This document shows, one piece after another, positions 8,079 to 57,502 of a stretch of 64,000 bases of DNA. The position numbers and the translations under genes were made by a program. Origin of the DNA: Betaproteobacteria bacterium (GTDB lineage: Bacteria > Pseudomonadota > Gammaproteobacteria > Burkholderiales > Methylophilaceae); assembly GCA_016867975.1 (NCBI GenBank), contig VGIC01000007.1, positions 1 to 64,000 on the forward strand, written 5' to 3'. The notes beneath the pieces are model-generated. The model was not told where the DNA came from. It made no database searches and saw only the letters and a program-made list of their open reading frames with translations. Within the stretch, counting starts at the first letter, position 1. Each line of letters opens with the position of its first letter.

Positions 8079-8159
8079 CGGCACTAATAAAGTGTCAAGC
8101 AGTATAAGCAGGTAATCAGCGAAACTGATGCTCGCGAACATGTATTTATAGAAGCGCCC
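8079..8159. mobile_element. MITE-like repeat, copy 1 (81 bp)
   Basis: A non-coding repeat whose right end reads TATTTATAGAAGCGCCC, the inverse of the family left end GGGCRCTTCTATAAAT. The internal palindrome ATCAGCGAAACTGAT corresponds to ATCAGCTTCGCTGAT in copy 3. The left end is degenerate (CGGCACTAATAAAGTG). Flanks read TGATC and AGATC, a 4-of-5 match that could be a worn target duplication. The right end stops three bases before the stop codon of the NUDIX gene. Otherwise the 7822-8162 interval holds only tRNA-Val and the hairpin. Confidence 0.75.
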
Positions 8160-23875: not shown

Positions 23876-24197
23876 AAGAACCTCTATAAATTCAGAATTT
23901 GAGATGCAGTATTGCCCGCAAACCAGTAAACTGGCAAGCGAAGTGTGAAAAGGCATATCCATGGAATATACACGCTAAACCAACATTTGGTTTTTCCTTG
24001 GATATACCAGCTAAAGCAGGTTATTCACACGCAAAAGGCGCATACCCGTACGGGGTTCCCCAACCTCGCTAGATACTGAAATCGGTTGTGACGGAACATA
24101 GACACCGAGAAAGCCAACGCAGTCATGCATTCAAGTGGTTTAAGCAGGCAATCAGTAAATGCTGATGCTCACAAAAAATGCATTGACAGAAGTGACC
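23876..24197. mobile_element. MITE-like repeat, copy 2 (about 322 bp, composite)
   Basis: The outer ends match the family: CTCTATAAATTCAG at the left and, inverted, GGTCACTTCTGTCAATGCATTTTTTG at the right. Reverse-complemented, its middle shares CCGTCACAACCGA, TAGCGAGGTTGGGG, GGGTATGCGCCTT and TACTGCATCTCAAAT with copy 4 in the same order. A further 120 bp, absent from copy 4, forms hairpins (for example GCCAGTTTACTGG, and AACCAAATGTTGGTTT). It fills most of the gap between nuoA and the nucleotidyltransferase gene; no ORF is supported inside. Confidence 0.72.
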
Positions 24198-39231: not shown

Positions 39232-39603
39232 TTAGTTCGCCTGACTAGTCTGCGTTTTGTAATACTCACGTACCGCTGTCATATCAAAATCACGCGCCCA
39301 TTGGATGATCGCATCAAAAGCTGGCGCGCCAATCTCCCCTACCTGCGCATGAATTCCCGCTTGTTCACGAATCACCAGGATACCTGGAACCTGATTCACT
39401 TCAAAATATTCAGCGATTTCAGGGTTGAGTTCAGTATTGACCATGCCAAACAAAATATCAGGGTTTTTCTCAGCGGCAGCCTCAAAAGTCGGTGAAAATG
39501 CAACGCATGGATCACACCATGGCGCCCAGAAATCAACAATCACAAAAGCATTGTTTTCGATTGTTTCTTTAAAATTTTGTTTATTGAGTGAAACGACTGC
39601 CAT
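39232..39603 (-). CDS. Thioredoxin-family protein with CDPC active site
   Basis: A 123-residue thioredoxin fold: FVIVDFWAPWCDPC at residues 20-33, cis-proline in NQVPGILVIRE near residue 76. The usual WCGPC is WCDPC here. The C-terminus extends about 15 residues past the common fold (DFDMTAVREYYKTQTSQAN). No signal peptide is visible, so it is probably cytoplasmic. A MITE-like repeat ends 28 bp upstream of its start codon; the ribosome-binding site TAGGATG lies between them. Its partner reductase cannot be inferred. Confidence 0.87.
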   Translation of the reverse strand: MAVVSLNKQNFKETIENNAFVIVDFWAPWCDPCVAFSPTFEAAAEKNPDILFGMVNTELNPEIAEYFEVNQVPGILVIREQAGIHAQVGEIGAPAFDAIIQWARDFDMTAVREYYKTQTSQAN

Positions 39604-39630
39604 GATGACATCCTAAAATTAATAATTAAC

Positions 39631-39721
39631 GGGCACTTCTACAAATATATTTTTTGCGAGCATCAGCTTCGCTGATTGCCTGCTTTCATCGCTTGAGCAT
39701 CTGAATTTATAGAATGCGCCC
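39631..39721. mobile_element. MITE-like repeat, copy 3 (91 bp, flanked by TTAAC duplication)
   Basis: The clearest copy. Left end GGGCACTTCTACAAATATAT, right end (inverted) GGGCGCATTCTATAAATTCA. The centre is the palindrome ATCAGCTTCGCTGAT followed by TGCCTGCTTTCATCGCTTGAGC. The immediately flanking five bases are TTAAC on both sides (39626-39630 and 39722-39726), as expected for a target-site duplication. It is non-coding and too short for a transposase, so mobility would need a trans-acting enzyme. Confidence 0.85.
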
Positions 39722-39792
39722 TTAACGTTAGGTTAAGAGTTTAGCAGAGCTCGCTCATTAAGTTAAGACACATTTCCACTTTAGAGCCCTTC

Positions 39793-40392
39793 CTAAACTA
39801 CCGGTTGATTCCAACGATTGGCAAAAAACAGCTCAGACAAAGGCTTTCTCACACGCTCAACAGTCTCTCTCGCCAACACATCGCCTTCTAGGGTTGCAAT
39901 ATCCGCTGGGTAACCAACCGATATCATTGCCATCAAAGTGTACTGCTCTGGGATATTAAAGGTAGAACGTACTTTGTCTGAGTCAAAACCACCCATCTGA
40001 TGTGCCATTAACCCCATACTGAATGCCTGCAAACATAGATTTTCTGCAGCTGCGCCCGTATCATACTGTGCAAAACGATTAGGCTTTTGGTTATGCCTAA
40101 ATAGCGTATCCGCGCACACCAATAAGAGTAATGGTGCATCTTTTGCCCAAGCCTGATTACCTGGCACTAGACAATAAAACGCTTGCTGCCAACTTGCCGC
40201 GTCTGTGTTTTTATTCCAAACGACAAAACGCCAAGGCTGATCACCAAAGCAAGAAGGTGCCCATCTTGCCGCCTCAAGTAGTGCAATCACCTGATCTTGA
40301 CTAACACTCTTTGTAGCATCATAAGCACGCCCGCTCCAGCGAGCTGCAATAGTCACATCAATGGGTACTTGGGTAATTGCAGGTTTATGCAT
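39793..40392 (-). CDS. Nitroreductase-family FMN oxidoreductase
   Basis: A 199-residue protein of the nitroreductase fold. FMN-contact segments are visible: ARWSGRAYDATKSVSQDQVIALLEAARWAPSCFGDQPWRFVVW at residues 16-58 and the later MGLMAHQMGGFDSDKVRSTFNIPEQYTLMAMISVGYPAD near residues 128-166. Substrate is unknown; such enzymes reduce nitroaromatics, quinones or enones in vitro. It lies 189 bp from the thioredoxin-like gene and is probably a separate unit. Confidence 0.88.
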   Translation of the reverse strand: MHKPAITQVPIDVTIAARWSGRAYDATKSVSQDQVIALLEAARWAPSCFGDQPWRFVVWNKNTDAASWQQAFYCLVPGNQAWAKDAPLLLLVCADTLFRHNQKPNRFAQYDTGAAAENLCLQAFSMGLMAHQMGGFDSDKVRSTFNIPEQYTLMAMISVGYPADIATLEGDVLARETVERVRKPLSELFFANRWNQPVV

Positions 40393-51696: not shown

Positions 51697-51944
51697 GGGC
51701 ACTTCTATAAATACATTCTTTGAGCGCATTACTGCGTTGCGCGGTTTTTTGGTTACGACATAACCTAAAGGTTAGTCTGCACCGCAACTGCGTTGTCGCA
51801 ACCTCGCTGTATACTGCATACTATCTCAGCTTCTGCGTTCCGTCACAACCGACTTAATGCTTCAGCATTTAGCGAGGTTGGGGACGCCCCATGCGGGTGT
51901 GCGCCTTGTACTGCATCTCAAATCCTGCGTTTATAGAAGCGCCC
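51697..51944. mobile_element. MITE-like repeat, copy 4 (248 bp)
   Basis: Terminal inverted repeat GGGCACTTCTATAAATACAT (left) and, inverted, GGGCGCTTCTATAAACGCAG (right). Flanking bases are TGTT on both sides. The interior has several small palindromes (GCGCATTACTGCG, GACATAACC-TAA-AGGTTAGTC, AATGCT-TC-AGCATT). It fills most of the peroxiredoxin upstream gap. No ORF is supported. Confidence 0.82.
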
Positions 51945-57424: not shown

Positions 57425-57448
57425 GCCATCTGTTTGGTAACGAAAGCC

Positions 57449-57502
57449 AAGCTGATACTCGCAAAAAATGTATTGATAGAAATATCCTTTATAGAAGTGC
57501 TC
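57449..57502. repeat. MITE-like repeat, degenerate copy 5
   Basis: GCTGATACTCGCAAAAAATG at 57451-57470 matches GCTGATGCTCACAAAAAATG in copy 2, followed by TATTGATAGAA. The segment ends TTTATAGAAGTGCTC, close to the inverted family end TTTATAGAAGTGCCC. It is shorter than others and has no clear left end. The end contains the likely GTG start codon of the next gene. Confidence 0.65.

Follow-up and report, generated by a model that had tools for sequence, protein, structure and literature searches.

A short inverted-repeat element upstream of a thioredoxin-like gene and the 4-bp target duplications of its family

Among the described systems, MITEAba12 derives from ISAba12, measures 111-114 bp and is flanked by 9-bp duplications in 36 of 90 copies, according to the copy descriptions in PMC6382973. 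The REP/RAYT palindromes of the GTAG and CGTC superfamilies are treated in a paper where a term search found none of the names Nitrosomonas, Gallionella, Methylotenera and Sideroxydans (PMC3733652). No published description of the MITE family reported here was found in the open-licence PMC literature at the level of titles and abstracts. The window, i.e. the whole stretch of 64,000 nucleotides that was analysed, carries copies 1 to 4 of this family and a fragment of a further one. A sequence-only reading had reported TTAAC on both sides of a 91-bp unit with inverted-repeat ends at 39626-39726, and the letters are as it gave them. The features are the following:

39631..39721, + strand: copy 3, a 91-bp non-coding, internally shortened MITE member (blastn in its own genome, nhmmer family alignment)
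39631..39646, + strand: left terminal inverted repeat GGGCACTTCTACAAAT; family consensus GGGCACTTCTATAAAT
39705..39721, - strand: right terminal inverted repeat, one base longer than in other copies (sequence, family alignment)
39656..39683, + strand: core palindrome GCGAGCATCAGCTTCGCTGATTGCCTGC (module F), also present in other copies and, in other genomes, away from the element
39626..39630, + strand: left TTAAC flank (sequence)
39722..39726, + strand: right TTAAC flank, likelier ancestral sequence than duplication (family flank counts, ortholog alignment, spacing)
39232..39603, - strand: thioredoxin-like gene, 123 aa (ORF; orthologs and promoter alignment)
39793..40392, - strand: nitroreductase-like ORF, 199 aa, on the far side of copy 3 (ORF list)
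8079..8159, - strand: copy 1, scored at 81 bp, with a weak right end; flanks GATCT/GATCA, matching at 4 of 5 positions
23876..24197, - strand: copy 2, 322 bp; flanks without match
51697..51944, + strand: copy 4, 248 bp; TGTT on each side, a 4-bp duplication
57445..57491, - strand: fragment of a further copy, right end not recognised

Copy 3 and its dispersed family

As read from the sequence, TTAAC (39626-39630) and TTAAC (39722-39726) directly abut the 91-bp unit (39631-39721), which starts with GGGC and ends with GCCC. Its ends are inverted repeats (GGGCGCATTCTATAAAT versus GGGCACTTCTACAAAT), with one extra base in the right end. The unit is gene-less and intergenic between the ORF limits 39603 and 39793, and it is placed 27 bp upstream of the ATG of the thioredoxin-like gene, with the inferred -10 box on its other side. 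The ORF 39793..40392, putatively nitroreductase-like, is a neighbour conserved in 28 of the 30 fetched loci.

A blastn search with copy 3 plus the adjoining sequence returned 31 matches in its own genome (G000; 1.56 Mb, 44 contigs). The terminal-end pattern matched 43 times in this genome, against 0 for the reversed control pattern, and at least once in 17 of the 52 genomes of the genus, the reversed control giving 0 in each. The family is present at dozens of sites in this Methylotenera-like genome and also in other Nitrosomonadales, so that one MITE family is documented across methylotrophs, iron oxidisers and ammonia oxidisers. Copy 3 is short, has no coding capacity and possesses terminal inverted repeats shared across copies. 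Judged by its sequence, it belongs, in shortened form, to a dispersed family of gene-less inverted-repeat elements (MITE), and its alignment reads as module F plus both ends, most of the remaining element being gone.

Target duplications of the family and the TTAAC flanks of copy 3

The flanks were compared in a set of 107 two-ended copies with distinct sequences, each end matching at least 13 of 16 positions (summed at least 28), ends 60-450 bp apart and 12 bp of flank. This set was drawn from loci retrieved on the strength of a match rather than from whole genomes, and a few evidently wrong pairings remain in it (e.g. L263 at 230, L283 at 84, L070 at 1182 and L059 at 1254). Copies 1 and 3 are outside the set, their right ends being below the end-matching threshold, and copy 4 (TGTT) is inside. 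For the null distribution, right flanks were shuffled among copies in 1000 trials; a run of 500 shuffles agrees.

A flush 4-bp flank repeat is present in 49 of the 107 copies, whereas the shuffled flanks gave 6.8 on average and at most 15. The corresponding values are 1/107 for flush 5-bp repeats (shuffled mean 0.8) and 8/107 for flush 3-bp repeats (10.4). When up to one mismatch is allowed, 80 of the 107 copies have the 4-bp repeat; the exact repeat is absent in 58. It is found in 19 of the 31 copies with both ends at 16/16 and, for the own genome only, in 12 of 27 copies (5-bp repeat: 0/27). Pooled with their reverse complements, the 49 duplications comprise TAAA (18), TTAA (10), ATAA (7), ATTA (5) and nine others. 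The MITE family thus duplicates 4 bp at its target. A size of 5 bp is ruled out for the family, as are duplications sitting one base off: a 4-bp repeat plus one spare base was observed in 1/107 copies on each side, below the shuffled means of 2.6 and 2.7. The sequence-only reading had left the size unsettled, having correctly noted TGTT on both sides of copy 4 and the 4-of-5 flank match of copy 1; it is now settled at 4 bp for the family. The same reading had allowed that its case would fall if the duplication pattern were not repeated in other copies, which is what was found for 5 bp and not for 4 bp.

A close thioredoxin ortholog (at least 71% identity) was detected in 46 of the 52 genomes of the genus, and the upstream region was read in all 46. 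The element is present in three of these promoters (G000 with copy 3, G024 and G055) and absent from the other 43; the upstream region of G007 contains a single 14/16 end match with no partner end. The elements of G024 (193 bp) and G055 (200 bp, at the -35 box) have TTAA on each side. After removal of the 193-bp element and of one TTAA, the G024 region measures 117 bp and displays an ungapped identity of 108/117 to the empty site of G016 and of 98/117 to that of G061. Because this element-free reconstruction matches both empty sites without gaps, the alignment proves that the G024 copy is an insertion with a 4-bp duplication. The search for an empty site in the thioredoxin promoters of relatives, which had been suggested from the sequence alone, was thus conclusive for a sister copy, and the claim that the family belongs to the transposed elements holds, given the shared ends, the 4-bp duplications and this empty site.

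The three promoter elements are unlike in sequence class, position and length. One inherited insertion common to G000 and G024 was rejected, G016 (whose flank is nearly identical to that of G024) being empty and the element classes being different. Three independent insertions (L134, L141 and window 39604-39748), two of them TTAA-flanked, are observed in one thioredoxin promoter/leader among 46 genomes. This promoter/leader is possibly an insertion hot spot, and natural variants with and without the element are available for expression comparison.

The TTAAC repeat of copy 3 had been interpreted as a transposition footprint. This interpretation does not fit the family, which makes 4 bp and not 5, and the empty orthologs agree better with both TTAACs having existed before the insertion. 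When copy 3 is removed and both TTAACs are kept, the distance from TCTGCTAAA to the ATG is 54 nt; when one TTAAC is also removed, it is 49 nt. Among 44 orthologs, a spacing of 54 is the commonest (10 sequences), followed by 63 (9) and 52 (7), and 49 occurs in none. Since the spacing of 54 is restored with both TTAACs and the spacing of 49 is absent among the orthologs, the repeat is likelier an old flank than a duplication, and we would give the old flank about an even chance. Pairwise alignment to the empty orthologs preferred both TTAACs in 25 of 26 cases and one TTAAC in none, with one tie, the longer reconstruction offering more positions at which a match can occur. G016, G061 and G047, the empty orthologs that align best, scored 103, 103 and 100 with both kept versus 96.5, 96.5 and 93.5 with one. 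Relatives carry TTTAAGTCAA at the position of the TTAAC/TTAAC flank, and the best-aligned ones have TTTAAGTCAATTATT in place of the GTTAAGTTAATTATT expected for G000, so that the TTAAC pair (GTTAA in the direction of the gene) resembles two adjacent words of older sequence. The nearest orthologs by thioredoxin identity barely discriminate (G056 83.0/83.0, G048 83.0/82.5), and in a two-protein tree G000 is located near a clade with a leader that can hardly be aligned.

There is perhaps one chance in a few that copy 3 did make a genuine, off-size 5-bp duplication (TTAAC), as DDE transposases occasionally stagger one base longer or shorter. Its perfect flush match is expected by chance in about 1% of copies (approximately 0.8 per 107 shuffled flank pairs), which taken singly is somewhat more than chance; across the family it is not, 5-bp matches being at chance level (1/107). 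One-base departures have a precedent in MITEAba12, whose duplications are usually of 9 bp and once of 8 bp among the copies described in PMC6382973. Such a duplication is not contradicted by the orthologs of highest protein identity, but the pre-insertion leader that it implies (49 nt) has no counterpart in the 44 orthologs, and G016, G061 and G047 align across the junction with both repeats kept. It is unlikely that copy 3 duplicated TTAA (4 bp) and has a single spare base at one of its ends, the fifth match being coincidental. Such a structure would agree with the family size and with TTAA as the second commonest target (10/49), and copy 1 is readable alike (GATC plus T), but these offset duplications are not in excess in the family (see above). 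If the flank is old, an empty close relative is expected to read GTTAAGTTAATTATT, TTTAAGTYAATTATT, GTTAAGTTAA or TTTAAGTYAA; if 5 bp were duplicated, it is expected to read TAACGTTAATTATTAA, with a single GTTAA. A perfect flanking repeat at a single copy can mislead where the family rule differs.

Putative transposase, modules and folding

Copy 3 is very probably a non-autonomous MITE that an IS5-family DDE transposase mobilised in trans and that landed at the thioredoxin promoter, the TTAACs being likelier pre-existing. We infer trans-mobilisation by an IS5-type transposase from the ends and the duplication size. This transposase would recognise ends of the type GGGCRCYTCTAWAAAT, cut AT-rich targets with a 4-bp stagger and move the MITE in trans. 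Copy 3, at 91 bp, would derive by internal deletion from a longer form (other copies measure about 142 bp or more) and would have inserted downstream of the -10 box and ahead of the start codon, in a promoter region apparently hit in three separate lineages. Its real 4-bp duplication (TTAA) would then probably have been lost from one side, and the transposase would later have been lost from, or missed in, G000.

The genome G039, from another family of the same order, contains eight two-ended ISs of 1334-1335 bp with ends GGGCATCTCTAAAAAT, of which five have exact 4-bp duplications. Their transposase matches NF033581 (IS5 family) with 160.7 bits for a cut-off of 140, and also PF05598 and PF01609. 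One 1351-bp IS of this type, flanked by TTTA, is found in Nitrosomonas sp. Nm34, and a truncated IS5-family gene relic in Methylophilaceae bacterium P-RSF-NP-02 has the end GGGCACTTCTATAAAT, identical at 16/16 positions to the MITE family. The ends of the ISs of G039 and Nm34 are near-identical to those of the MITE, but the resemblance is limited to about 16 bp, and the internal sequences differ. The reading frame of the G039 IS is interrupted in L101 (728-2062) and is likewise split in the other copies listed (L098-L106), which would reflect either a programmed frameshift or the multiplication of a broken IS.

Within G000, no match to PF01609, to the G039 protein or to NF033581 was obtained in an assembly that is 92.7% complete and divided into 44 contigs; ISs are easily lost from incomplete multi-contig assemblies. 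Among the members of the genus, only G062 has a full NF033581 match that exceeds the cut-off, and the IS ends found there differ (GAGACCTTTGCACGAA). Ends of the MITE type are mostly absent from the IS5 copies of G062 and from the other IS5-type loci examined, the exceptions being Nm34 and the P-RSF-NP-02 relic. The plasmid records yielded at least 5000 IS5-type matches, all below 60% identity, and did not help further.

Element lengths are quantised when modules and module borders are taken as our own reading of the aligned sequences: of the 19 copies whose sole module is D, 17 measure 141-144 bp; those with D and F have 182 bp (2/2), and 4 of the 7 with D and B have 200-201 bp. The Nitrosomonas/Gallionella form measures 140-142 bp in 12 of 21 copies and, with F, 179-181 bp in 11 of 14. 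A degenerate pattern of the core palindrome matched 75 stretches of named genomes, mostly from Gallionella, Sideroxydans, other Gallionellaceae/Nitrosomonadales, Nitrosomonas and Methylotenera. A family end is located within 45 bp upstream of module F in 23 of the 75 exact matches and none is there in 52; the others are inside GTCATTCCGGC...GCCGGAATGAC palindromes or near unrelated sequence, some of them belonging to family elements whose ends are farther away (L200, L208, L224). Among the several other contexts of module F are loops of GTCATTCCGGC-type palindromes and positions beside CTCGTTTGCCTCCTCTCCCGC-type repeats in Gallionellaceae (L152-L226). We tentatively propose that the family is a modular mosaic, in which a base of about 142 bp would gain or lose whole palindromic modules (about 40, 58 and 60-65 bp), and in which module F (40 bp) may also move without terminal repeats, into loops of unrelated palindromic repeats, across several Nitrosomonadales families. 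At what seems to be one site (left flank ATGCTCAA), L045 (G012) and L050 (G011) contain elements of 251 and 182 bp, which looks like the gain or loss of a module at that site. If the mosaic is true, hairpin-in-hairpin insertion would build composite miniature transposons, and a real modular build-up would offer a natural series of composite elements for studying the gain and loss of palindromic modules.

The 52 matches without a nearby end could also suggest that the family spreads as a REP-like palindrome via a Y1 (RAYT) transposase, and G000 does have a Y1-transposase gene with an internal stop. We consider this very unlikely: the core palindrome (up to 6/28 mismatches) was detected in 0 of the 30 examined loci around Y1 genes and Y1 transposition is not known to involve IS5-type ends or target duplications of 4 bp. 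The G000 gene, of RAYT type (G000:C28:1244-1570, L344), has an internal TAG, and the core palindrome was not found in this locus.

The predicted fold of copy 3 has -33.3 kcal/mol on the thioredoxin strand against a shuffled mean of -19.4 (z -4.6), and a z of -1.7 on the opposite strand; the strong folding is attributable to the inverted ends, which alone would produce folding. Copy 3 contains no intrinsic terminator pattern and one weak promoter-like match (shuffled mean 0.5), and an Rfam search of the window returned only a tRNA, with nothing at gathering score in copy 3. That the unit is a conserved regulatory RNA or thioredoxin leader and not a mobile element, as its fold and its occurrence in the thioredoxin promoter of three lineages might suggest, is highly improbable in view of the 43/46 promoters without it, the dissimilarity of the three promoter elements, the dozens of copies at other places, the Rfam result and the folding expected from the ends; as a general explanation it is refuted by the empty sites in orthologs.

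Comparison with known systems

The REP/RAYT palindromes resemble the family in having a short, scattered palindromic module, which here displays no RAYT association (0/30 loci). MITEAba12, as far as its description in PMC6382973 extends, is likewise small and gene-less, with terminal repeats, AT-rich targets, a presumed trans-mobilisation and fixed-size duplications in about 40% of copies (36/90 versus 49/107 here). It differs by its 9-bp duplications, its near-uniform length and its resident parent IS, whereas the window family has a mosaic length (70 to more than 340 bp) and no parent IS was found in G000. The IS5-family ISs (NF033581; PF05598 and PF01609) differ from the window element, which is gene-less and has only the terminal stretch in common with them; they are like the MITE in their type of terminal repeat and in their 4-bp AT-rich duplications, and the DDE transposase is present in full-length ISs of the same order.
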